A stretch of DNA of 29,701 bases from a virus: positions 1 to 29,701 of the IMG/VR virus record IMGVR_UViG_3300006192_000023; one strand, given 5' to 3'. The notes under the pieces are model-generated. The model saw only the letters and a list, made by a program, of their open reading frames with translations. It made no database searches and was not told the DNA's origin. Shown here one piece after another: positions 14 to 29,136 of this stretch (positions within the stretch are counted from its first letter, which is position 1; each line of letters opens with the position of its first letter). A program made the translations under genes and the position numbers.

Positions 14-46
14 CAAATATAATCATTTCGATTAATTAATAATCAT
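14..46 (-). promoter_or_regulatory. Candidate late promoter, left copy
   Basis: On the minus strand this 33-bp stretch begins with ATGATTAT and ends with TATATTTG, which fits the Bacteroidetes -7 consensus TAnnTTTG. It matches the element at 14780-14812 at 29 of 33 positions with no gap. It lies after the head-morphogenesis gene and points off the left edge, so it would serve a gene outside the window, perhaps the capsid block. The promoter role is inferred from the duplication and the consensus; no clear -33 TTTG box is present. Confidence 0.55.
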
Positions 47-71
47 TCGGATTACTAAAATCTTAAAAAAA

Positions 72-944
72 TTATTTTATTCGATTTCTTACTTCTATTG
101 GCACTGACGATGTAGGTACTCCTATTATCTGATGCCCGCAGTTCCACCCACCAGCATAGGACAAGAAATTGCTTTCATTGGTATCTGACTTCATACCATT
201 AGGTAGCCCTGTAGCCTCAGATGTCTTACATTCATGACCATCTATATTGCCTAATAGAATAGTTGCAATCTCACTTTTATGAAAATATCTCTTTTTCACC
301 ATATGCACGCAAAACTCACGGCTAGTTTCCTTTAAGCTATTTTTATAGACGAACCATTCATATCCAGCCTCATTGCTCATAATTGCATTGTAGCTTCTTG
401 AAAATGTATTGATTGAATCAGTAGCGATTGTTTCAGCGTATTTCGAGACTAATCCTTTTCCATCCGTTGGCTTTAATGCACTTCTTAGGTAATCTGCCAT
501 GTCATTATAACTCCCGCCAGATGTAACATTATTGATTAGCATTTTTCTGATTGGCTGAATTACGTTGGCAGACATACCGCTTTCTGTGAGACCATCGATA
601 ACCATTTCAATACTTAATTTTTCAAGCCTTTTAGCATAAGGAGTAGAATTTAAACTAAAATACAACTCTTGAGCCTGTACTACATTATGAAATTCAGACA
701 CAAAATCAGATACATCTTTTAGATACTGCTTTGAAAAAATAACTTTTTCAAGTTTCTTGTTAATATTAGATACTATTCTGAGATTATCAATAGTTTGCTT
801 TACGTTTCCTATATCATCGGTTTTCAATTCTTTAATAAGAATCATCATACTCTCTAATATTTTCTTCTCAATAACAGGAATATTACTCCTGAAATCATTC
901 AGAGCATTATTGATGACTTTATCAATATTATCTATCTTCTCCAT
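72..944 (-). CDS. Phage head morphogenesis / minor capsid protein (Mu gpF / SPP1 gp7-like)
   Basis: A 290-residue protein probably needed for procapsid assembly at the portal vertex. The first half is helical. The C-terminal third has the signature of this family: TSREFCVHMVKKRYF near residue 210 and GGWNCGHQIIGVP near residue 270, matching the family pattern of an R-x-F-C segment followed by a W-x-C-x-H segment. An in-frame TTG lies two codons upstream at 950; the ATG at 944 is chosen. It overlaps the end of the portal gene by 17 bases, the usual portal-then-head-protein order. The family call is from motifs only. Confidence 0.75.
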   Translation of the reverse strand: MEKIDNIDKVINNALNDFRSNIPVIEKKILESMMILIKELKTDDIGNVKQTIDNLRIVSNINKKLEKVIFSKQYLKDVSDFVSEFHNVVQAQELYFSLNSTPYAKRLEKLSIEMVIDGLTESGMSANVIQPIRKMLINNVTSGGSYNDMADYLRSALKPTDGKGLVSKYAETIATDSINTFSRSYNAIMSNEAGYEWFVYKNSLKETSREFCVHMVKKRYFHKSEIATILLGNIDGHECKTSEATGLPNGMKSDTNESNFLSYAGGWNCGHQIIGVPTSSVPIEVRNRIK

Positions 945-2679
945 AACCAAGACTCTTTCTTATTGATGATTTCGCACTATTAACAGATATTACTTCATCA
1001 GCTAATTGATACAAGGCCTCCATCTGCTTGTCAAAATCAAGTTTAACAAAATCTTGGTCACGATTCATTGCCTTATTGACGAAAGACATAATATTGCAGC
1101 TAACTACATAGTCCCTAGTAGTTACGCCATCATTATTAAGTATTGTCATTTTTTCGTCAATTGTATAGCCATACAAGGGATCAAGATTATATATCATGAT
1201 AATTTTCTCGGCAATAGATTCATCTGCATTGTACTTTTTGCGTGCATATTCTATTTCCATATCTTTAATTAAAGCAGAGTTGACTTTGCTTGTTTTAGCG
1301 GCTTGAATTTCAAGCATCAAATAAGATGAGTCTAGTATATCAAATTTTTCAGGTACATATATTTTCGGCATCATTGATTTCCGATCATCTTTAGAAAGTA
1401 CGTATCTATATCGATACTCTCCGATGAAATAATAGATGTTATCCATTATCCTAACAAGGTCTTCTGCTATTGAATTAACAAAGTTATTAAGTTCATCTTT
1501 ATCGACCTCTTTTGCAGTACCAGACTGATTAAGAGGAGTCTCGGCTAGGAATTCCATATTGATTGAGGCCAAAGCTCTGTATATGTGATTTTCCACTCTT
1601 TCATCTTGTAACTTAGCTATATCGGATGACTTATTGATGTAACCAATAGGAGGAGTAGGCATTGCATTTTCACCTACACTTTGCGCTCTAATTATGTATT
1701 CCCCATATGGAGAAACTGATTTTATGTGACCAGCGCCATTACAGTGCGTACAGCTTTCCCTTGTATTGCTATCTAAACCAGTCCCTTTGCAGTGCGGGCA
1801 TTCTGTGTTGGTATAGATATACTTCTCAGAATGAATATGCTGGACTATTTCTGCCTGTAAATCTGAATATTCACGTGCAGCCTCATCAAGAGATGGCACC
1901 ATTGAATCTATCCGGCTCTCATATAATGTATCATTATTAACTCTTTTATGGAAATTACCTCCAACTCTAAACGCAGGTATTCTACCAATTCCATGATCAT
2001 ATACTAGATCAATATCTAAGTCTCCATTTCTTGAGACTTGCTTGTATCGTATAATATGATCTTCAGTGAGTATATAATATATGTCACCATCGTAATAGGT
2101 CCTATATCCTGATTTAGACGTATATTTTACTTTATCCGCCGATTTTAGTACTAGATACTCATCCTCTACATAATCAATGACTTGTTGACTGCTAAATACT
2201 TCAGCAACAGGCTTCAGATATTCAGAAGTTGACGTTGGCAAATCCTTTATAATTACGGCGACAAAAGAATTAGCATCAAGTAGATATCTCTGTAAAAGCT
2301 CAGAAAAAACCCAATTAGTAATAGATGCAAAACCGGGATAGTTTTTTTCGCAATAATCCTCAAGGCTCTCTCCATCTGCAATTATTGATGGTATATTACT
2401 CTGATATTGAATACTCCAATCTTGGCTTCTCCTTATCTTTTGCAGAGATGTAATAACCTTTGATATTGGATTTTTCGTAATAGGAACATATATTTGTTTC
2501 CTATACTCCTTAATTTCTTCTGGCTCAGAAGGCCTCCTTTTGTATATAAGATCTTCTGGCACAATTCCGCTTGCATGCGTTGTTAACCTTTTTGCGAGTT
2601 TGACTGTTAGATCGTAATTCAGATGCTTATTGCGAATTACATTTCTAATCCAATCCGGGGTAATTTCAATCTTTGCCAT
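928..2679 (-). CDS. Putative phage portal protein with DnaJ-like zinc module
   Basis: A 583-residue protein, in the size range of portals, the dodecameric ring through which DNA enters the capsid. Support is positional (directly before the head-morphogenesis gene) and compositional: mixed alpha/beta N-terminal half with a long helical C-terminal half, including a helix around residues 350-380 followed by AETPLNQSGTAKEVDKDE, like the flexible Q-S-G-x-A-K segment of other portals. Residues 294-317 hold two CxxCxGxG repeats (CPHCKGTG and CTHCNGAG; Cys 294, 297, 310, 313), the zinc-binding pattern of DnaJ. That insertion is unusual in a portal; see findings. It is separated by only 12 bases from the 237-aa gene upstream. 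Confidence 0.7.
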   Translation of the reverse strand: MAKIEITPDWIRNVIRNKHLNYDLTVKLAKRLTTHASGIVPEDLIYKRRPSEPEEIKEYRKQIYVPITKNPISKVITSLQKIRRSQDWSIQYQSNIPSIIADGESLEDYCEKNYPGFASITNWVFSELLQRYLLDANSFVAVIIKDLPTSTSEYLKPVAEVFSSQQVIDYVEDEYLVLKSADKVKYTSKSGYRTYYDGDIYYILTEDHIIRYKQVSRNGDLDIDLVYDHGIGRIPAFRVGGNFHKRVNNDTLYESRIDSMVPSLDEAAREYSDLQAEIVQHIHSEKYIYTNTECPHCKGTGLDSNTRESCTHCNGAGHIKSVSPYGEYIIRAQSVGENAMPTPPIGYINKSSDIAKLQDERVENHIYRALASINMEFLAETPLNQSGTAKEVDKDELNNFVNSIAEDLVRIMDNIYYFIGEYRYRYVLSKDDRKSMMPKIYVPEKFDILDSSYLMLEIQAAKTSKVNSALIKDMEIEYARKKYNADESIAEKIIMIYNLDPLYGYTIDEKMTILNNDGVTTRDYVVSCNIMSFVNKAMNRDQDFVKLDFDKQMEALYQLADEVISVNSAKSSIRKSLGYGEDR

Positions 2680-10888: not shown

Positions 10889-11130
10889 TTCTTACTCCTT
10901 TCTTTTGTTCCGGCAACACCGGTTATTAAGAGTGCTGCTAACGTTATATAACCAACATGATTCACAAACCATTCAGGTAAGGATATGCCCATACCTTGAA
11001 AAGTCAACCAAGCACCGGGCACAACAGCCGCGATTGTTGCAGATGCATTTCTAACCCATTTAGCGACTTTAGGCGTATCTGCCCGCCATTGTCGAGGTAA
11101 ATCTTTAATAAATGCAATAATTTTTCTCAT
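10885..11130 (-). CDS. Putative holin
   Basis: An 81-residue protein with two hydrophobic segments (ASATIAAVVPGAWLTFQGMG, about residues 30-49, and HVGYITLAALLITGVAG, about 57-73), a basic N-terminus and a KERSKK tail. This fits a small two-helix holin that opens the inner membrane for the amidase. The ATG at 11130 shares bases with the TGA of the XhlA-like gene (ATGA), which favours it over the longer frame from 11199. The lysis role rests on topology and neighbours. Confidence 0.65.
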   Translation of the reverse strand: MRKIIAFIKDLPRQWRADTPKVAKWVRNASATIAAVVPGAWLTFQGMGISLPEWFVNHVGYITLAALLITGVAGTKERSKK

Positions 11131-11375
11131 AATAAATACTTTTGAACAACATATATGAGTATTGGAAACATTACGCTGGCCACTCCTACAGCTTTCCAAT
11201 AGAAGACTTTTATTTCCATCACTCTTTTTTCGAGTTCTGAAACCCTTTTAGACAAACCGGTGACTCCAAGTTGAGAGCCCTCTAGCACAAACTTAATTTC
11301 ACCAACGTCTTTTTTAAGACCATTCAGACTTTCGTTGAGTCTGTCTATTTTCTCTTCTAAGCTTCTATCTTCCAT
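11127..11375 (-). CDS. XhlA-like coiled-coil membrane protein (lysis accessory)
   Basis: An 82-residue protein with an N-terminal coiled coil (SLEEKIDRLNESLNGLKKDV, continuing with heptads to about residue 52) and one C-terminal membrane helix (VFYWKAVGVASVMFPILIYV, about 57-76). This is the architecture of XhlA/hemolysin-type phage proteins that work with holins. It is the first gene of the lysis cassette, preceded by a 76-base gap holding TAnnTTTG boxes. Confidence 0.6.
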   Translation of the reverse strand: MEDRSLEEKIDRLNESLNGLKKDVGEIKFVLEGSQLGVTGLSKRVSELEKRVMEIKVFYWKAVGVASVMFPILIYVVQKYLL

Positions 11376-11403
11376 ATTCGAGCTTTATAATGTTTCTTGT
11401 TTA

Positions 11404-11437
11404 CAAATATACAAATCTATGTGATTAATTGATATTC
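11404..11437 (-). promoter_or_regulatory. Candidate promoter before the lysis/tail block
   Basis: The only gap between the large terminase and lysis genes. On the minus strand it contains two boxes fitting TAnnTTTG: TAGATTTG (11419-11412) directly followed by TATATTTG (11411-11404), about 30 bases before the ATG at 11375. Upstream lies AATTAATC, also present in the 14-46 element but three bases further from the box. It is a weaker, spaced-out relative of the 33-bp element. Confidence 0.4.
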
Positions 11438-11451
11438 TTTATGATTATTTT

Positions 11452-12771
11452 CTACTCAAAAAAACGTATATGATCCCTGAAGTATCTATGTATGTAATAT
11501 CGAAATGTATCAAGAGTATCAGCTTGCTGTGATTCATCTGCACGATTATTTTTAATGATAGTACCATCTGAGTTTGCCTTACAGCGTTCACAGTCATCAA
11601 TAATAGGCTTACACTTCTCCTCGTCAACTATCAATGGATATTTTTCAAGTATGGTATTGACAAGCATTCTACTGTCTTTTAATCGCGGGTTACTAGCAGA
11701 ATATTGCATCTGAGTTTTAGCAAGATCAAGTGATTGTTTGATTACGCCAAAATTACTAATATTACTCATTGTAGTAAGAGTATCACCTGAAGCATCACCC
11801 GTAACAAAAAAGAATCCCCCGGGATACCTCTCTTTTATTTCGTCACATAATCGATGTATCGTGCAATCCTTAATTTTAATACATTCAATCCCGCGAATCA
11901 AACCATCATGATGTTGCCATACGCTACATACAATAGGGTTGCGGTTAAAGTCGAATGATAGATAGGTTGGCTGTGTAGGGTCCCATACCGTTTTACCCAC
12001 ATGCTTCTTTCTCTTGAAAGAAAATGCCCACCGACCGTCCTCTCCATCAAAGTCAGTCCAATCTCCTTTAACGAATTGTTTATAATATCGTTCGGCCATC
12101 ATGCTCCAACCGTGGAACTGATCCTGAGTAACGAATGGATTGTCATCAGGTAAAGCTGACATATAAAAAAACTCTTCAGAAAGAGTATCATTACAATATG
12201 GATCATAAATCTTAGTCTTAACCCAATTTTGACAAGGATTGAAAGTCATAAATATCAGTCCTCTAGGCATCTTTGGAATGTACCATGATCCTGTTCGTTC
12301 GAGAGCTTTGTCCCACATCTTCTCGCTTAATTCCTCTGCTTGTTCTAGGAAAAAACCATTAGTTTCAACACCCAAAAACTTCATAAGATTAGGATCCTGC
12401 TGTATGTTTTCTCCCTTGAAGAATATTTTCGAACCGTTTTTATGTCTCGCATGATAGTTGGACTTATTTCGATAGAATGTCCATTTTCGGGAACCAGCTA
12501 CAATCTTTTCAAAAGATGGAATCGTTGTGGCTTCAAGAGATGGCATATCTTTTCTGATAATATGCCATCTTGAGCCAGGGAATATCTCTGCTAACCTGAT
12601 TAATATTGCGAGCGTGACAAACGTTTTACCACCACGTACAGCGCCACCATAATTTAGGAACTTGAATGAATTGGCATTTTGAGCCGCTCCCAAAGCTGTA
12701 TAGAAATAATCGGCCTGTTTAGGATTCCGAGTAAGATCAACATGAACAGACTTTTTGCTTTCGTTTTTCAT
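11452..12771 (-). CDS. terL: Terminase large subunit
   Basis: A 439-residue packaging motor and nuclease. The ATPase domain has Walker A GGAVRGGKT at residues 42-50 and a Walker-B-like GFFLEQAEEL at 139-148. The C-terminal RNase H-like nuclease domain shows acidic positions Asp274 (SFDFNRNP), Asp326 (VTGDASGD) and Asp418 or Asp421 (QADTLDTFRYYI). Length is normal for the family. Its ATG overlaps the stop of the small subunit (12768-12771). I cannot tell cos from headful packaging from the sequence. Confidence 0.93.
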   Translation of the reverse strand: MKNESKKSVHVDLTRNPKQADYFYTALGAAQNANSFKFLNYGGAVRGGKTFVTLAILIRLAEIFPGSRWHIIRKDMPSLEATTIPSFEKIVAGSRKWTFYRNKSNYHARHKNGSKIFFKGENIQQDPNLMKFLGVETNGFFLEQAEELSEKMWDKALERTGSWYIPKMPRGLIFMTFNPCQNWVKTKIYDPYCNDTLSEEFFYMSALPDDNPFVTQDQFHGWSMMAERYYKQFVKGDWTDFDGEDGRWAFSFKRKKHVGKTVWDPTQPTYLSFDFNRNPIVCSVWQHHDGLIRGIECIKIKDCTIHRLCDEIKERYPGGFFFVTGDASGDTLTTMSNISNFGVIKQSLDLAKTQMQYSASNPRLKDSRMLVNTILEKYPLIVDEEKCKPIIDDCERCKANSDGTIIKNNRADESQQADTLDTFRYYIHRYFRDHIRFFE

Positions 12772-13211
12772 ATTTCTATCTCTCTTCCATCAGGTAACAA
12801 CATAGTAGGGATAGATTCATCATCTGAATCATCAGAAGATGATGAATAGTCGGTACCGTTGCCCTTATACATAAGTGGAGTAACTCCGTCAATACGCGCA
12901 ATGCTATCAATTATACGCAATGCGGTTCTAGCTCCGGAGGGTACATCTTTACGCTTAAGGTCTCGATATAGTTTTTTTCTCAGCTCTATATGATACGCTT
13001 TCAGGTCTTCTATACTTTGCTCATTAGCAGCTTTAAAAAAGCCATAAGCTTCTTTGTGGTATTTATAAGCCTGCCTATCTGTTATATTCCAGCTTATAGA
13101 CGCTTGACGGATAATATCAGAAGTAGCGTATCCTTGCAGTATCCATTCTTGAACTGCCCGGACACGCCTTTCTTTTTCGTCCTTATCAACCTTTTTACCA
13201 CCTCTAGGCAT
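12768..13211 (-). CDS. terS: Terminase small subunit
   Basis: A 147-residue protein placed directly before terL. Residues 15-60 (VQEWILQGYATSDIIRQASI, then WNITDRQAYKYHKEA) form a helix-turn-helix for recognition of the packaging site, and the following charged helices suit oligomerisation. The C-terminus carries a Ser/Asp run (SSSSDDSDDES), probably a flexible linker to the TerL-binding end. Only one base separates its start from the preceding stop. Confidence 0.8.
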   Translation of the reverse strand: MPRGGKKVDKDEKERRVRAVQEWILQGYATSDIIRQASISWNITDRQAYKYHKEAYGFFKAANEQSIEDLKAYHIELRKKLYRDLKRKDVPSGARTALRIIDSIARIDGVTPLMYKGNGTDYSSSSDDSDDESIPTMLLPDGREIEI

Positions 13212-13212
13212 A

Positions 13213-13407
13213 TCACAACATTTTGATTACCGAAATATAGCCTCTTAAATCATAAATGGAATTCCGAACCTGAAGAGCTCTAGCCTTAATTTCATAAGGC
13301 TGCTCTTGTTCATTGATTGGGCCCTCATATTTTTTAAGTTCATCAATCTTTATCTCCAGCTGCTCAGTTAAGTATTGCAGTATCTTATCTTTCTCAGTTT
13401 TTGCCAT
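13213..13407 (-). CDS. Small coiled-coil protein before terminase
   Basis: A 64-residue, mainly helical charged protein (KDKILQYLTEQLEIKIDELK). An in-frame TTG lies at 13413, but the ATG at 13407 is preferred; it overlaps the methyltransferase end by 14 bases. No family is recognised. Its location immediately ahead of the terminase subunits suggests a packaging accessory or simply a filler gene in the same operon. Confidence 0.55.
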   Translation of the reverse strand: MAKTEKDKILQYLTEQLEIKIDELKKYEGPINEQEQPYEIKARALQVRNSIYDLRGYISVIKML

Positions 13408-14755
13408 ATCCAAAATCGTCTAAAGTTAAATCCCCGTTCAAATGTTCAAAATCAACACTCAATCCATTTTTAATGCAGTATGTAACATATCTCTTTATAA
13501 TAGATTGCACATATTTAGGTTCAATCTCAGTGGCCCGGCAACGCCTTTGAGTCTTTTCGCACGCCATAAGACACGTTCCTGAACCAAGAAACCAATCAAT
13601 AACAATATCACCTTCCATAGTCGTATCAAGAATACAATCAGCAATCATACTAACAGGTTTTGGAGTCGGGTGATTTCGAATCTGATCTTTATCAGGATTA
13701 GCAACACTAATTGCCGATGGGTATTTCCACACATTCGACCTGATACGGTCCATAAGATCAAGATTGGACAGATGTTTGTCATTACCATATTTGTAGATAA
13801 AGCAAAGTTCATGCTGAGCGCGGTAGAATGATCCTAGTGCCATCATATCTTTTACCCAGACACACATTTGCTTAGGTTCTGGGCTTCCGTACACTTTATA
13901 AGCAGCATCACCCATATGCCATGAATGTCTAAAATCCATAAAAATGTAATGTATAGCTCCATTTATTGAGTTGTCACAAGAGGCCTGCATTATCTTGGCA
14001 ATAAACTCTTTAAACTCGCTATCAGACATTTCGCCATGTCCCATCGCAAAATTATCATGCGTTTTATGATCGACATTGCCTATGTAATCTGCTGCCAAGT
14101 TGTAAGGAGGGTCTGTATTAACAATCCTAGCCTTTTCACCACCCATAAGCATTGAGACACCAGCCTCATCCTCAAAAGAGCCACAAAACACCATGTGCTT
14201 TCCTAACCGAAATAAGTCTCCAAACTTAATAATAACCGATTCCTCCCCAACCTCTTCAATCGCGTCTTCTTCCTGATTGTCACCAATACCATATGGATTA
14301 ATCTTTTGTTCAAAACGAGGCATCGAGAACTCAGGAAGATTCACTTCATTAGAGAACGAAGACATCTCTAGTTCATAAGCCTTCATAAAATCAAATAGCC
14401 CGTTCTGAGTTATCTTCGCATAATAAGAAGAATAAATCAAAACGAGCTTGGCCGCTTCTTGAATATTTTCGCATTTGATAAAAGTAGCCGGCAACAAATA
14501 AGGAACTTCAATTCCTTCAGATACAAGTTGTTCAAGAGCTAAACTTCTATGCTTACCGTCTAAGCAATAAATAACACCATTATTATCTTCCCAAACGTAA
14601 CAGGGCTGAATAAAACTGTTTGCTACTAAACTGGCCTTTAGTTTTCGCATCGAATCCTCAGGCAACTCTTTGAAATTTTCTTGCTGAATGAATTGAAGTT
14701 CTCTCCAATTTACATCCTGTGTTTTAATAACACGAGAGCTTAAACTATTGCACAT
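13394..14755 (-). CDS. ParB-fused DNA methyltransferase (beta-class N6/N4)
   Basis: A 453-residue two-domain protein. Residues about 15-140 form a ParB/sulfiredoxin-like domain with the DGKHR motif at 66-70. The C-terminal domain is a beta-class amino-methyltransferase: motif IV DPPY at 215-218 comes before motif I DWFLGSGTC at 387-395, with a HPTPKP segment between them. It should methylate adenine or cytosine amino groups in phage DNA, giving protection or marking packaging sites. The longer frame from 14782 begins with TTG and would start inside the -7 box; the ATG at 14755 lies about 25 bases after that box and is chosen. It heads the terminase block. Confidence 0.85.
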   Translation of the reverse strand: MCNSLSSRVIKTQDVNWRELQFIQQENFKELPEDSMRKLKASLVANSFIQPCYVWEDNNGVIYCLDGKHRSLALEQLVSEGIEVPYLLPATFIKCENIQEAAKLVLIYSSYYAKITQNGLFDFMKAYELEMSSFSNEVNLPEFSMPRFEQKINPYGIGDNQEEDAIEEVGEESVIIKFGDLFRLGKHMVFCGSFEDEAGVSMLMGGEKARIVNTDPPYNLAADYIGNVDHKTHDNFAMGHGEMSDSEFKEFIAKIMQASCDNSINGAIHYIFMDFRHSWHMGDAAYKVYGSPEPKQMCVWVKDMMALGSFYRAQHELCFIYKYGNDKHLSNLDLMDRIRSNVWKYPSAISVANPDKDQIRNHPTPKPVSMIADCILDTTMEGDIVIDWFLGSGTCLMACEKTQRRCRATEIEPKYVQSIIKRYVTYCIKNGLSVDFEHLNGDLTLDDFGYGKN

Positions 14756-14779
14756 AACTGAATTATTTTGAATCCAGTA

Positions 14780-14812
14780 CAAATATATTCATTTTGATTA
14801 TTTTATAATCAT
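14780..14812 (-). promoter_or_regulatory. Candidate late promoter, right copy, with palindrome
   Basis: On the minus strand it starts with ATGATTAT, ends with TATATTTG (-7 consensus TAnnTTTG) and matches the element at 14-46 at 29 of 33 positions. Within it, 14795-14811 is a perfect inverted repeat, TGATTAT-3 bases-ATAATCA, a possible operator. The -7 box lies about 25 bases before the methyltransferase ATG, a plausible leader length. It marks the switch from accessory to packaging genes. Confidence 0.6.
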
Positions 14813-15198
14813 AAAGATTTGGATTTAAGCAAAATTTTTACCTGTTTAGTGTAATACCTAATAAGGAAATCAAGTTCGTTATCAGCAAACTGCTTAACCT
14901 CATTCTTGGCATCCTTGAGACCTTCAACAATAGCTTTACCATATTTACGAATTAAAGCATCTTCGTACTTACTGTTTTCACCATCCTTGAATCTATTACA
15001 ATCCACACACTGAGCGTGGACATTTCGAGCATCCCACCTAACAGACATGTGACGTCTGCCTATGAAGTGACCAGCATCGCTTGACTTCCATCTAACACGC
15101 TTACCACATGTTATGCAAGTTATCATACCGTACTCGTCACTGTCTCGCAACCTTATGTATTGAGAGAATAATTCATCTAAGACTTTTTCTTTCTCCAT
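14809..15198 (-). CDS. ninG: NinG/Rap-like recombination protein
   Basis: A 129-residue protein related to lambda NinG (Rap), a structure-specific nuclease acting on recombination intermediates. The signature is present: CITCGKR (Cys28, Cys31), DAGHFIGRRHMSVRWDARNV (residues 41-60) and CVDCNRFKDG (Cys64, Cys67), a four-cysteine HNH-like zinc centre. It is shorter than lambda NinG. The start at 15198 is preceded by GCCGATT directly joined to the ATG, a leader also seen before 18909. Its end overlaps the upstream edge of the candidate late promoter. Confidence 0.8.
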   Translation of the reverse strand: MEKEKVLDELFSQYIRLRDSDEYGMITCITCGKRVRWKSSDAGHFIGRRHMSVRWDARNVHAQCVDCNRFKDGENSKYEDALIRKYGKAIVEGLKDAKNEVKQFADNELDFLIRYYTKQVKILLKSKSL

Positions 15199-19126: not shown

Positions 19127-19135
19127 ACTTTTCTG

Positions 19136-19147
19136 TTTAATTGGTTA
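19136..19147 (-). promoter_or_regulatory. Recurrent leader TAACCAATTAAA
   Basis: Perfect copy on the coding strand, 9 bases before the ATG at 19126; its first three bases are the stop codon of the DnaC-like gene. See the finding on this repeated leader. Confidence 0.6.
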
Positions 19148-23204: not shown

Positions 23205-23468
23205 TTACTTGTTATGTACCTTGGCGTGGCAATCTTCACATAAAGTTGTGAGACAATAAAGAAAATCCATTTCCCGACCTACAATAGACCTTCCATTGAC
23301 ATTGTAGGTTTTATGGTGAATCTCTAAATCATACGCTTTACCACACATCGTACAGCGATGGCCGTCACGCATTCTGACGGCCCGCCTTACCTCCTCCCAA
23401 TAGGGGTTACTCTTCAGAGTCGCCCGATACTTCGTCGGTCTCCCCCTCTTGTTCTTCAGTCTCCCCAT
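23205..23468 (-). CDS. HNH endonuclease
   Basis: An 87-residue HNH nuclease: WEEVRRAVRMRDGHRC leads into CTMCG (Cys39, 42), LEIHHKTYN (His51, 52) and CEDCHAKVH (Cys77, 80), the complete zinc-supported beta-beta-alpha-metal pattern. Such proteins nick DNA at packaging or recombination. The ATG at 23468 is chosen; it makes the basic N-terminus (GRLKNKRGRPTKYRATLKS) overlap the acidic tail of the upstream gene in another frame for 62 bases. The catalytic domain itself begins at about 23408, right after that stop, so a later non-ATG start is possible. Confidence 0.75.
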   Translation of the reverse strand: MGRLKNKRGRPTKYRATLKSNPYWEEVRRAVRMRDGHRCTMCGKAYDLEIHHKTYNVNGRSIVGREMDFLYCLTTLCEDCHAKVHNK

Positions 23469-24240
23469 CGTCGTTATATGTGCCATCACGGAATGGACTA
23501 TCTTCAAATAAAGCAGAATGATTCTCGTGCCTTTCGATTGGAACAACTTTGCCATTATCTTCATCTAAGAAGTCTTCTATCCAAGTATGAACCCAGACAT
23601 CACATCCATTTTCTTCCCAAACCTCAATATCACCCCATTCTGTGTCATTGAATCGGCGAACATTAACCCTTTTGTCTTCTATCTTCACCTCTGGGAGATC
23701 ATACCCAAGTTCCTTCAGCTTCTCTTCATTCAATTTACCCGAATTAAACAAATCATTCATTTCATGATTAGGTATCTGCTGTACAAGAGCAAGCCTGAAA
23801 GAGTCGTCAAGAAAAGTATAATAGCAATAATGGCCACAAACAGGTATCCTGAATGTATCTTGCATGTTAAGTTCAAAATCTTTAATGCCTTTTTTTGCAA
23901 GAGCAACATAGTCTTTGAACTCTGTATGAGCAGCTGACATTTTAGCCTCAAACTCTTTCTTCTTGGCATTGTATTCAGCTTTTATCGATTCAAACTCTGA
24001 TTCAAGATCAGGAATCCTACACTCTGCAATTTCACCGTATTTGGCACGAATTTCAGAAACCTCTTCTGCTGTCATAATACGATTGGCAATAACATTCTTT
24101 TCTTGTATCGCCACTAGGTTTTCCGACAAAGACTTTCTGACTTCATCCATCGTTTTGCAGTTTTCGAATAATCTCTCTGGGAATTTAATAGTATCAGGTA
24201 ATTTAAACTCAATACCGCTTTTTGTTTCATCCTTTTTCAT
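23407..24240 (-). CDS. Hypothetical coiled-coil protein in the recombination block
   Basis: A 277-residue protein with no recognised family. Residues about 35-120 are a charged coiled coil (ESEFESIKAEYNAKKKEFEA), then comes a compact mixed domain (FRIPVCGHYCYYTFLDDSFR, KVPIERHE-like strands) and a very acidic tail (EEQEGETDEVSGDSEE). The acidic end resembles the partner-binding tails of ssDNA-binding proteins. Its place between the RecE-like nuclease and HNH genes points to DNA metabolism; that is inference only. Confidence 0.55.
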   Translation of the reverse strand: MKKDETKSGIEFKLPDTIKFPERLFENCKTMDEVRKSLSENLVAIQEKNVIANRIMTAEEVSEIRAKYGEIAECRIPDLESEFESIKAEYNAKKKEFEAKMSAAHTEFKDYVALAKKGIKDFELNMQDTFRIPVCGHYCYYTFLDDSFRLALVQQIPNHEMNDLFNSGKLNEEKLKELGYDLPEVKIEDKRVNVRRFNDTEWGDIEVWEENGCDVWVHTWIEDFLDEDNGKVVPIERHENHSALFEDSPFRDGTYNDDGETEEQEGETDEVSGDSEE

Positions 24241-24598
24241 TGTCTAAATATTTAAATGTATAACCATTAGTTTGATTTTGTACTCCTTTAAGAACTCGGT
24301 AGATGCTTTGGTTGCAAATACCTGTTTCGCGCTCACATGCTCTTGCAGAGTCGAAACAGCCTATTTCTACACCATTCTTAAACATGAGTACTTTTTTACC
24401 GGTACCATAATTCCAAGGCTTCTTTCCTTTGGAATTATCAGGCTTAAGGTTAGCTCTGCATTTCGCTTCTATTTCAGGGCTACGCATCCATTTTATGCCC
24501 TTTTTACCTTTATGCCAAGGGTTGTGGCCTTTTATAAATTTACCCTTAATCCTTTGAGGCCTTTCCGGGTAAATTTTCAACTCATAACTACTCATCAT
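24227..24598 (-). CDS. NUMOD-like DNA-binding protein without nuclease domain
   Basis: A 123-residue basic protein. FIKGHNPWHKGKKGIKW and SKGKKPWNYGTGKK (about 20-80) recall the NUMOD3 repeat, and the C-terminal VEIGCFDSARACERETGICN followed by QSIYRVLKG has the helix-turn-helix form of NUMOD1, both found in homing endonucleases. No GIY-YIG or HNH catalytic motif is present, so it could be a domesticated remnant. The ATG at 24598 overlaps the nuclease gene by 11 bases; the longer frame from 24739 is a shadow of that gene. Confidence 0.6.
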   Translation of the reverse strand: MMSSYELKIYPERPQRIKGKFIKGHNPWHKGKKGIKWMRSPEIEAKCRANLKPDNSKGKKPWNYGTGKKVLMFKNGVEIGCFDSARACERETGICNQSIYRVLKGVQNQTNGYTFKYLDNEKG

Positions 24599-25748
24599 CG
24601 ATATCCGTTGGGTGCTCTTCTCGGAATGACCACTGAGGCCCGTCAAACAGAATAATGCCGTTATTTCCCATTTCTGCTTTGGAGTCGAATCCCGGGAAAA
24701 AGTCTTTATCTTTGCATTCTTTGACGACTGATAGAGCATAGTGAAACTTATATTTACCTAATTGAAGAGTATCAGGTCCTAGCCATAATACTGCCGGTGA
24801 ATAAGGTGGAACGGTTTGCAGCATAACCATTATGGTTACATTGAATTTTCGGCCTGTGACGTTACTCATTACTTCCTGATACATTCCCTCAGAAAGCTCG
24901 TATTTCAATTTACCAAAGTCGTACGCAAATTTGCCAATAGAGTCACACCTAGTAGTTTTAAGCGATATAACTGCATTTACGCCTATATTCTCCTCAATAT
25001 TGAACGCATCCGGACGAACTCGCAGATTTAGACCTGTAGCCTCATCTGTACCATAGAAAGACGTTTCTGATTTAGCCCCTTTAAATAGATATTGTAGAAT
25101 GCCGCCACCATAATTGTAATAGTGCTTTTTAAGCACATCAATAATTATTTTATGTTCAGGCTGAATAATCTGAAATTGACACTTCGCTTTCTCATCGGCC
25201 AGTCTTTCTTTCAGTTCTTGCATTTTCCAATCATCAAAGAATGACGGTTTCTCTCCTTTTAATTCCTGAAAGAAGTTTATCATGCGAATTACACCGTCTT
25301 TTGTGGCCAAAGACACCTCAGGAGCAACGGCCACTTTATCAAAAAGCTCTGGTTCAAGAAAAGCCATGTGAGCAAACGTACCAAGCTCAAAGTGAGATTT
25401 ATCCTTTTCTTCGAAAACCTGATTATAATCATACAGAAAATGCAGAGGAGTCTTAAGAGCTTCTTTTAAGTTGCCAGAACTTATCGACCCTTTTTTCAAG
25501 TACTCATCCATAGGATCCTGAACAACTCTACCATTAACGGATAAATCATCAAGGTTAATTTCATAATAAGGATCGTCTTTATGCTTGTTGATGTAAGCAA
25601 GCATATCTTCCACAATAGGATATTCACCAGGAGGGCATGCCAATATATCGCTTTTACTGACCTCTTCAACCGGTTTCATTCCTGATAGAACTGCAAAGTC
25701 TATACCTTGCAGTTCTTTTTCATCAATAGTGCCCGGATCAATCATCAT
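24588..25748 (-). CDS. RecE-like PD-(D/E)XK exonuclease
   Basis: A 386-residue nuclease like phage RecE/DUF3799 proteins, which chew 5' ends for strand annealing. GTFAHMAFLEPELF (123-136) is the helical motif with the family His, and RVRPDAF (243-249) supplies the first catalytic Asp (Asp247). The next motif is ISLKTT (261-266): Lys264 is there, but Ser262 stands where Asp or Glu is expected. SEGMYQEV further on matches the family's helical QxxxY segment. Activity is therefore uncertain. It overlaps its neighbour upstream by ATGA and lies with an SSB-like gene and an SbcC-like ATPase. Confidence 0.75.
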   Translation of the reverse strand: MMIDPGTIDEKELQGIDFAVLSGMKPVEEVSKSDILACPPGEYPIVEDMLAYINKHKDDPYYEINLDDLSVNGRVVQDPMDEYLKKGSISSGNLKEALKTPLHFLYDYNQVFEEKDKSHFELGTFAHMAFLEPELFDKVAVAPEVSLATKDGVIRMINFFQELKGEKPSFFDDWKMQELKERLADEKAKCQFQIIQPEHKIIIDVLKKHYYNYGGGILQYLFKGAKSETSFYGTDEATGLNLRVRPDAFNIEENIGVNAVISLKTTRCDSIGKFAYDFGKLKYELSEGMYQEVMSNVTGRKFNVTIMVMLQTVPPYSPAVLWLGPDTLQLGKYKFHYALSVVKECKDKDFFPGFDSKAEMGNNGIILFDGPQWSFREEHPTDIDDE

Positions 25749-26143: not shown

Positions 26144-26152
26144 AATAAAATG

Positions 26153-26164
26153 TTTAATTGGTTA
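26153..26164 (-). promoter_or_regulatory. Recurrent leader TAACCAATTAAA
   Basis: Perfect copy, 9 bases before the ATG at 26143. Confidence 0.6.
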
Positions 26165-27507: not shown

Positions 27508-27513
27508 GATTTG

Positions 27514-27525
27514 TTTAATTGGTTA
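27514..27525 (-). promoter_or_regulatory. Recurrent leader TAACCAATTAAA
   Basis: Perfect copy, 6 bases before the ATG at 27507. Its TAA is also the stop of the 32-aa ORF upstream. Confidence 0.6.
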
Positions 27526-27779: not shown

Positions 27780-28088
27780 TTATTTTAGTATATTTGCAGT
27801 ATTCAAATCCATTTGTGATTTCACAATAGATTTGTTTAATTGGTTAGCCCCAGATTGTCTGTGAGAGATAGTTTGGGGCTTTTCCATCTCCATATAGCAT
27901 TTATCGCACACAATTCTGCTCTCCTTTACCCATTTTCCATTAGAAGCTCGGTATTCCAGTTCTACCTTAGAGCCATCTCCAATTATCTCATCTTCGCATT
28001 GGTCACAGAACACATGATCTTGCCAACAATGTTTTGATTTGCATTCGGAGCAGTCGTTGACCGGGCACATATAATCATCCTTTTTCAT
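27780..28088 (-). CDS. Cysteine-rich zinc-binding protein
   Basis: A 102-residue protein with many Cys pairs: CPVNDCSECKSKHC (8-21), CDQCED (28-33) and CDKCYMEME (61-69), suggesting two treble-clef or zinc-ribbon sites. The C-terminus from about residue 75 (SGANQLNKSIVKSQMDLN) is unstructured and lies over a DNA hairpin, a leader motif copy and a palindrome, so this end may be under RNA or DNA constraints rather than protein ones. It overlaps the upstream gene by ATGA. Confidence 0.6.
   Translation of the reverse strand: MKKDDYMCPVNDCSECKSKHCWQDHVFCDQCEDEIIGDGSKVELEYRASNGKWVKESRIVCDKCYMEMEKPQTISHRQSGANQLNKSIVKSQMDLNTANILK
27813..27826. promoter_or_regulatory. Inverted repeat TTGTGA-2-TCACAA
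   Basis: A perfect 6-bp inverted repeat with a 2-base spacer, within the last codons of the cysteine-rich gene and shortly after a leader copy. It looks like a dimer-binding operator. The half-site resembles the CRP core but the spacing is too short for CRP. Confidence 0.35.
27835..27846 (-). promoter_or_regulatory. Recurrent leader TAACCAATTAAA inside a gene
   Basis: Perfect copy, but read in frame as ANQLNK within the cysteine-rich protein. A GTG lies 10 bases after it in the same frame. It may serve an internal start or the downstream 51-aa gene, or be a relic of an earlier gene end. Confidence 0.45.
27846..27880. other. GC-rich hairpin (7-bp stem, 21-base loop)
   Basis: AGCCCCA at 27846-27852 pairs with TGGGGCT at 27874-27880. 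On the plus strand a short TTTT follows, so it could be a weak terminator for plus-strand transcripts; on the minus strand it leads straight into the recurrent leader. It stands out in this AT-rich region. Confidence 0.4.
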
Positions 28089-28363: not shown

Positions 28364-28541
28364 ATCTAGCCTCTTTATATGTATTGATCGTAACTAATGC
28401 CATTAAAACCAACATTATGATATATATCGATATCACAAAAGCAGGTGAGTTGAGTTTGATACCCATCGACATGTGGGCTACAGGGTACGAAAGCAATATG
28501 CAATCAATTATGATGCTGAAAATAAATTCAATCCATTTCAT
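28353..28541 (-). CDS. Small two-helix membrane protein
   Basis: A 62-residue protein with two hydrophobic segments (IEFIFSIIIDCILLSYPVA, and FVISIYIIMLVLMALVTI) and a short basic/acidic end (NTYKEARYGE). It overlaps the LuxR-type gene by 14 bases and the excisionase-like gene by 11 bases. It could be a superinfection exclusion or regulatory partner of the membrane-attached HTH protein next to it; no motif supports either. Confidence 0.55.
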   Translation of the reverse strand: MKWIEFIFSIIIDCILLSYPVAHMSMGIKLNSPAFVISIYIIMLVLMALVTINTYKEARYGE

Positions 28542-28869
28542 AATATTCAGTTCTATTGGTTCTTCTTGTTCTAGCCCTCATTGTCGATGCATTAACGTTT
28601 GTAAGTTGTACGCAAACTAATACCAGGCAGCAAGTAGCTATTATCTGTTTTTTCATATCGGACCAGTTTATATTAAGATTAAACTTCTTATTAATCCACC
28701 AAGCCCCTAATTCATTGAGTTTATTGGTTCCGGTTTTTTTGTAAGCATTATCAATATGAATATTCACAGTACCGTAAGCAATATTAAGTTCGTCTGCAAT
28801 CTCTTTTTTAGCAAGTCCGCAAGCCACAAGACCAGCAACTTGATTCTCTTTTCTACTCAACCCTTTCAT
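28528..28869 (-). CDS. LuxR-type HTH protein with C-terminal membrane segment
   Basis: A 113-residue protein. Residues 4-58 form a LuxR/GerE HTH: LSRKENQVAGLVACGLAKKE, IADELNIAYGTVNIHIDNAY and the KKTGTNK loop. After a short linker comes a hydrophobic stretch at about 75-94 (IIATCCLVLVCVQLTN) and an Arg/Thr tail (RARTRRTNRTEYYEMD). The ATG at 28869 overlaps the preceding stop by 17 bases; a start at 28968 would duplicate upstream coding. No receiver or ligand domain exists. A Met directly before the hydrophobic stretch (28656) could instead start a 42-aa exported peptide. Confidence 0.7.
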   Translation of the reverse strand: MKGLSRKENQVAGLVACGLAKKEIADELNIAYGTVNIHIDNAYKKTGTNKLNELGAWWINKKFNLNINWSDMKKQIIATCCLVLVCVQLTNVNASTMRARTRRTNRTEYYEMD

Positions 28870-29113
28870 AGCATTCAGGACACACTTTTTTTGAGACCTC
28901 ATTAACATTATTAATAAGATTCTTCTCTCTTTCCATAGCATCATTAAGCATCTCAATCGCACATTCAATAATACCGGGTTTGAGTGATTTATATTTGCCT
29001 GACAGCACCTTACTCACAAGTGCTTCCGAACATCCTTGTGCATCGGCTATTTGCTTTCTAAATCCATTCGGGTAATATTTGTTTAGCCCGACTTTTAATC
29101 CTTCCAAATCCAT
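28853..29113 (-). CDS. Small HTH regulator
   Basis: An 86-residue protein. Residues 18-45 (RKQIADAQGCSEALVSKVLS) read as a Cro/CI-like helix-turn-helix, followed by IIECAIEMLNDA, a probable dimer helix, and a C-terminal CPEC pair. As one of the first genes in the array it is likely to set early transcription. It starts 11 bases after a perfect leader motif. Confidence 0.6.
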   Translation of the reverse strand: MDLEGLKVGLNKYYPNGFRKQIADAQGCSEALVSKVLSGKYKSLKPGIIECAIEMLNDAMEREKNLINNVNEVSKKVCPECYERVE

Positions 29114-29124
29114 AATATGATCTA

Positions 29125-29136
29125 TTTAATTGGTTA
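29125..29136 (-). promoter_or_regulatory. Recurrent leader TAACCAATTAAA
   Basis: Perfect copy, 11 bases before the ATG at 29113 and one base after the stop of the 180-aa gene. Confidence 0.6.

Follow-up and report, generated by a model that had tools for sequence, protein, structure and literature searches.

Sites repeated ahead of several phage transcription units are known from different regulatory systems. In phage P1 and mycobacteriophage L5, one phage-specific site, bound by C1 in the former and known as the stoperator in the latter, is repeated across several transcription units, and the late activators Ogr of phage P2 and C of phage Mu act with a repeated site before late operons. Operators of the lambda, P22, and 434 type are short dyads, two per promoter, that overlap the promoter core in the CI/Cro early region. 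In the Bacteroidota, promoters of the primary sigma factor carry a TAnnTTTG box at -7 and a TTTG box near -33; for late promoters of Bacteroidota temperate phages, no description was found in open-access full text.

The element described here shares features with each of these systems: (i) like the P1 C1 sites and the L5 stoperators, it is a phage-specific site over several transcription units, but it is limited to about three late promoters and consists of tandem dyads set against a -7 box, (ii) like lambda-type operators, its dyads are short, paired, and overlap the promoter core, but they are located at late promoters and the candidate protein is separate from CI, and (iii) like promoters of the Bacteroidota primary sigma factor, it has a good -7 box at a distance from the start codon that fits the usual leaders, but in the window copies a dyad stands in place of the -33 box. 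The element is ordinary in kind, very probably a phage late regulon with operator pairs, and new in its architecture and host group.

Structure of the repeated element

The window, that is, the whole stretch of DNA analyzed, is a virus record of 29.7 kb that is probably fragmentary, with all main genes on the minus strand (Table 1). Comparison of the window with itself reproduced the repeat of the original prediction, in which positions 14-46 and 14780-14812 are identical at 29 of 33 bases without gaps. This is the top-scoring same-strand pair of 33-mers in the window, whereas the best pairs in 12 dinucleotide-preserving shuffles scored 24-28, and the likeness reaches 41 nt at 83% (family D5). 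Both copies are intergenic or nearly so, as had been claimed: 14780-14817 overlaps coding DNA only at the last codons of a NinG-like gene (14809-15198), and 14-51 is located beyond the stop of the gene at 72-950. On the minus strand both end in the -7 box TATATTTG, which is found in all three window copies and in most copies overall. The TTTG box near -33 is indeed absent at that distance from the two copies, and the distal dyad occupies its place. An Rfam scan of the window gave no match.

Table 1. Repeated elements and main genes of the window
Feature	Coordinates	Strand	Details
Element A	14780..14817	minus	distal dyad 14809-14817; proximal dyad 14789-14797; -7 box TATATTTG 14780-14787; predicted start near 14775
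Element B	11404..11444	minus	distal dyad 11436-11444; proximal dyad 11416-11424; 4-bp spacer; -7 box 11404-11411; predicted start near 11399
Element C	14..51	minus	distal dyad 43-51; proximal dyad 23-31; -7 box 14-21; predicted start near 9, running off the contig end
DNA methylase, ParB-like N-terminal part	13394..14755	minus	first gene after element A
Probable small terminase	12768..13211	minus	assigned from position and similarity to relatives
Large terminase	11452..12771	minus	
Coiled-coil-like gene	11127..11375	minus	first gene after element B
Portal protein	928..2679	minus	
Conserved late gene	72..950	minus	just upstream of element C

Two parts of the original prediction had to be revised. 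It assumed two copies and two transcription units; element B is a third copy, and therefore at least three transcription units are expected. It also emphasized ATGATTAT with the flanking AATC, which proved to be parts of dyads, since the conserved unit is a 20-bp-periodic tandem dyad pair before the -7 box. An exact pattern built from ATGATTAT had zero matches in viral contigs; the dyad architecture is conserved, its letters are not. Copies A and C read TC-N5-GA, N11, TC-N5-GA, one base, and TATATTTG on the minus strand, with the two dyads exactly 20 bp, or about two helical turns, apart and with outer arms that are frequently AATC...GATT or ACTC...GAGT. A hand tally from the scans gave a 1-bp spacer between the proximal dyad and the -7 box at 31 of 38 sites; the spacer is sometimes 2 or 4 bp. 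Since the -7 box occupies -12 to -5 in Flavobacterium (PMC9723704), the dyad centres are placed near -38 and -18; the putative dyad sites span about -44 to -12, and the proximal one about -24 to -12.

Element A leads into the methylase-terminase operon, for which a 20-nt leader is predicted, the methylase start being picked from an N-terminus alignment with relatives G002 and G003, and element B sits just past the terminase gene. The probable small terminase has no Pfam match, and the portal protein has none in a collection of deposited phages.

Two further features of the window were noted. Five copies of AACCAATTAAA(C/T)A lie on the minus strand (29123-29135, 27833-27845, 27512-27524, 26151-26163, and 19134-19146), mostly a few bases ahead of an early-gene start codon; five copies of AACCAATTAAA are also found in G452 and none in four other relatives checked. 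It is a possible early-gene leader element. HNH-like (23205-23564) and I-HmuI/NUMOD-like (24227-24739) reading frames, both on the minus strand, flank a conserved 277-aa gene and a DUF3799 gene, which suggests homing-endonuclease insertions in the region 23205-24739.

Distribution among related phages and host genomes

Relatives were gathered from viral contigs by searches with the portal protein (79 loci) and the methylase (one locus). The element was expected to persist at the same places in relatives, and this was found: the architecture occurs at matching places in four phages including the window, with zero occurrences in reversed-sequence controls. In all, at least 12 phages besides the window have it. 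A genome typically contains three copies, which precede the corresponding late blocks (methylase/terminase, post-terminase, and capsid). Four slots were distinguished: slot A before the methylase or small terminase, slot B after the large terminase, slot C before the capsid block, and slot D before a portal-adjacent gene. The window copy is matched in slot A by G002 and G003, in slot B by G003, G029, G452, and the Proteiniphilum prophage described below, and in slot C by G001, G002, G003, and G029. Matches with a 1- or 2-bp spacer are intergenic, ahead of late genes, and oriented with transcription. In slot A of G026, G027, G028, and G454, an ATG follows five bases after the box, and therefore a leaderless mRNA is predicted. 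Some copies are partly degenerate (G006, G007, and G033); a flexible scan revealed a degenerate variant with a 4-bp spacer in two slots of G006 and a weak trace in G005.

A strict DNA pattern run against the whole viral collection matched nine stretches, five of known phages and four from new ones, and all nine belong to phages with this terminase/capsid module; the four new phages have terminase, portal, and capsid genes in common. A looser pattern adds contigs L190 and L193, which encode homologous genes, and L194, a contig with the element of G028. Single matches in G329, G081, G369, L188, L191, L192 (and its copies), and L195 are apparently fortuitous. With 24 element sites as its training set, a position-weight model usually finds three sites per element-bearing phage, and none in 11 element-free relatives or in reversed controls; since most of these genomes contributed to the training, the evidence independent of it consists of the exact pattern and of G454. 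The latter phage was found via the candidate regulator XreT alone (see below) and then proved to have the element in three slots (A, B, and C), the copies in A and C each deviating once from the pattern.

Two relatives show deviating arrangements. The slot D element of G539 (L258, 1477-1538) apparently has three tandem dyads in 20-bp steps, and the phage reading frame after it soon stops, possibly at an insertion. G030 has the same capsid module and no element; its slots B, C, and D (L178 and L179) share a motif around TTATATTTTA, possibly another promoter class.

The 4.4-Mb genome of the isolate Proteiniphilum sp. X52 contains two exact matches, both within a prophage that has a third site with a 2-bp spacer. 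Among 393 Bacteroidales genomes, only four match, namely Proteiniphilum and three with a single site; in the one neighborhood examined among these three, no adjacent genes of this phage module were present. A host regulon, in which the phage exploits sites of a bacterial regulator, could be proposed, since XreT is a candidate binder only. The prophage-only copies in Proteiniphilum and the near-absence of the element from the 392 other Bacteroidales genomes already largely refute this reading, and we rejected it as extremely improbable. It is also very improbable that the repeat serves recombination, packaging, or some other non-transcriptional role, or arose by chance: it adjoins packaging genes, but its -7 box is conserved, its orientation always matches the following gene, and three or more dispersed copies per genome stand at operon starts, with zero in the controls.

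The elements are thus very probably late promoters of a phage-specific regulon, as judged from the recurrence before late blocks, the zero controls, the confinement of the pattern to phages with the module, and the prophage-only matches in Proteiniphilum. These data support the original prediction of a promoter-like, phage-specific element with a Bacteroidota -7 box at the packaging and capsid transcription units; of its two proposed classes, late or middle, the gene content of the operons retains late.

Candidate regulator of the late operons

The most likely binder of the dyads, proposed from co-occurrence, is a small Cro/CI-type helix-turn-helix (HTH) protein of 87-130 aa encoded between the CI repressor and the integrase, here called XreT. 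It was found in all nine element-bearing genomes in which the CI-integrase region was read (the Proteiniphilum prophage, G003, G006, G007, G026, G027, G028, G452, and G454). Four element-free records with integrase matches (G030, G049, G053, and G040) yielded no XreT; the integrase match of G040 is below the family cut-off and that of G053 is at the contig edge. G040 has one weak HTH match (E 3.5e-4), not counted as XreT. Most element-free records tested have no integrase match, and these contigs are possibly incomplete. In G001 (as trimmed), G002, G029, G033, G451, G453, and the window, which stops short of the lysogeny region, XreT was not found or the integrase-adjacent region was uncovered.

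Strong XreT matches occur in four Dysgonomonadaceae genomes, three of which have the exact element: Proteiniphilum; G481, whose phage seems identical to that of G452; and G539, with XreT on one contig and the element on another. In the fourth, G467, neither an exact element nor a TerL match was found, and the XreT contig is short and cut. When families were profiled with seeds from three element-bearing genomes, a Cro/CI-type HTH group ranked highest for its excess in element-bearing over element-free genomes (9/9 vs 3/11), in a cluster that mixes CI and XreT. The scan of viral contigs for XreT used single proteins, the XreT alignment lacking conserved stretches. The association of XreT with the element is suggestive and not proof, because the phages are related and possible co-inheritance in one lineage overstates the independence of the counts.

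The Proteiniphilum copy of XreT matches PF01381 above the cut-off, and the others match below it or not at all. The XreT structural model (pLDDT 90.5) contains an HTH; its best Foldseek matches are XRE folds, none below E 0.001, and it resembles the DNA-binding domains of P22 c2, SinR, and lambda repressor with weak E-values. At 29-79% identity, the predicted recognition helix (44-52) has N46 in all nine proteins and R49 in eight. The gene belongs to the CI operon and is codirectional with its upstream neighbor, at a gap of no more than 6 nt in seven of nine genomes and of 31-36 nt in two. Because this operon is tight and XreT directly precedes the integrase in several genomes, the protein is expected in the lysogen.

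Another candidate binder, an early protein with a GerE HTH (window 28528-28968, minus strand), was rejected for its absence from several element-bearing phages. This GerE/LuxR-type protein continues beyond the HTH with a hydrophobic segment and a tail rich in arginine; G001, G003, and G030 have homologues, and G452 has a similar protein.

Possible modes of control

We tentatively favor, while stopping just short of calling it probable, a regulated late promoter at which XreT represses the packaging and capsid genes in the lysogen. The host primary sigma factor would read the TAnnTTTG box, and transcription of the operons for packaging (A), post-terminase genes (B), and capsid (C) would begin at these promoters. 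The two TC-N5-GA dyads would be operators for a pair of HTH dimers, so that XreT, co-produced with CI, could sit over the core promoter at each late operon and, as a second repressor, keep packaging and capsid genes off until induction. The architecture of the element, its conservation, location, and phage-specificity, and its co-occurrence with XreT are observations; promoter activity, XreT binding, and the direction of control are all predicted here from sequence. Repression appears somewhat likelier than activation, given the place of XreT in the lysogeny operon, the overlap of the dyads with the promoter core, and the lack of an integrase match in most element-free records tested.

The original prediction suggested a phage activator, which stays as one option among others; the core overlap favors a repressor, as does the CI-operon location of the XreT gene, the sole DNA-binding gene that co-occurs consistently. 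It is a real possibility that host RNA polymerase is recruited by XreT, or by an early protein, bound at the paired dyads, following the general logic of known phage late activators: the -33 TTTG is missing in the window copies, the 1-bp spacing to the -7 box is nearly constant, and the sites are confined to late operons. Unlike in the Ogr and C systems, however, the proximal dyad lies within the polymerase footprint and the candidate gene belongs to a lysogeny operon; no homologue of an Ogr- or C-type activator appeared in the profile searches made. Moreover, the spacer can also be 2 or 4 bp long, where a change of 3 bp rotates the helix by about 100 degrees, and no early gene is common to all element-bearing phages. 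A -33 box is likewise reported as undetectable in promoters of F. johnsoniae (PMC7366714).

Operators of the main CI repressor, or of a lysogeny protein other than XreT, are an unlikely identity for the dyads. Element-bearing phages mostly have integrase and CI-type HTH genes, and paired dyads are bound by CI-type proteins; yet the CI proteins diverge strongly among these phages while the dyads are conserved, and no operator pairs were found in the early control region, on which CI has to act. The position-weight scan also counts against XreT: it detected no convincing operator pair at the promoter of the CI/XreT operon, and in the Proteiniphilum prophage a single weak site close to the early control region.

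Implications for temperate phages of the Bacteroidales

The element is a DNA-level signature that singles out a phage group from a large viral collection without protein similarity. It marks the late operons, and makes late-gene control testable in the isolate Proteiniphilum sp. X52. Should XreT bind the dyads, late-gene silencing in the lysogen would be a layer separate from CI. A dedicated second repressor, encoded between CI and the integrase and silencing the late operons via paired operators, may then be a lysogeny strategy of Bacteroidales temperate phages, a proposal that we regard as possible and hold a little more cautiously than repression by XreT itself.
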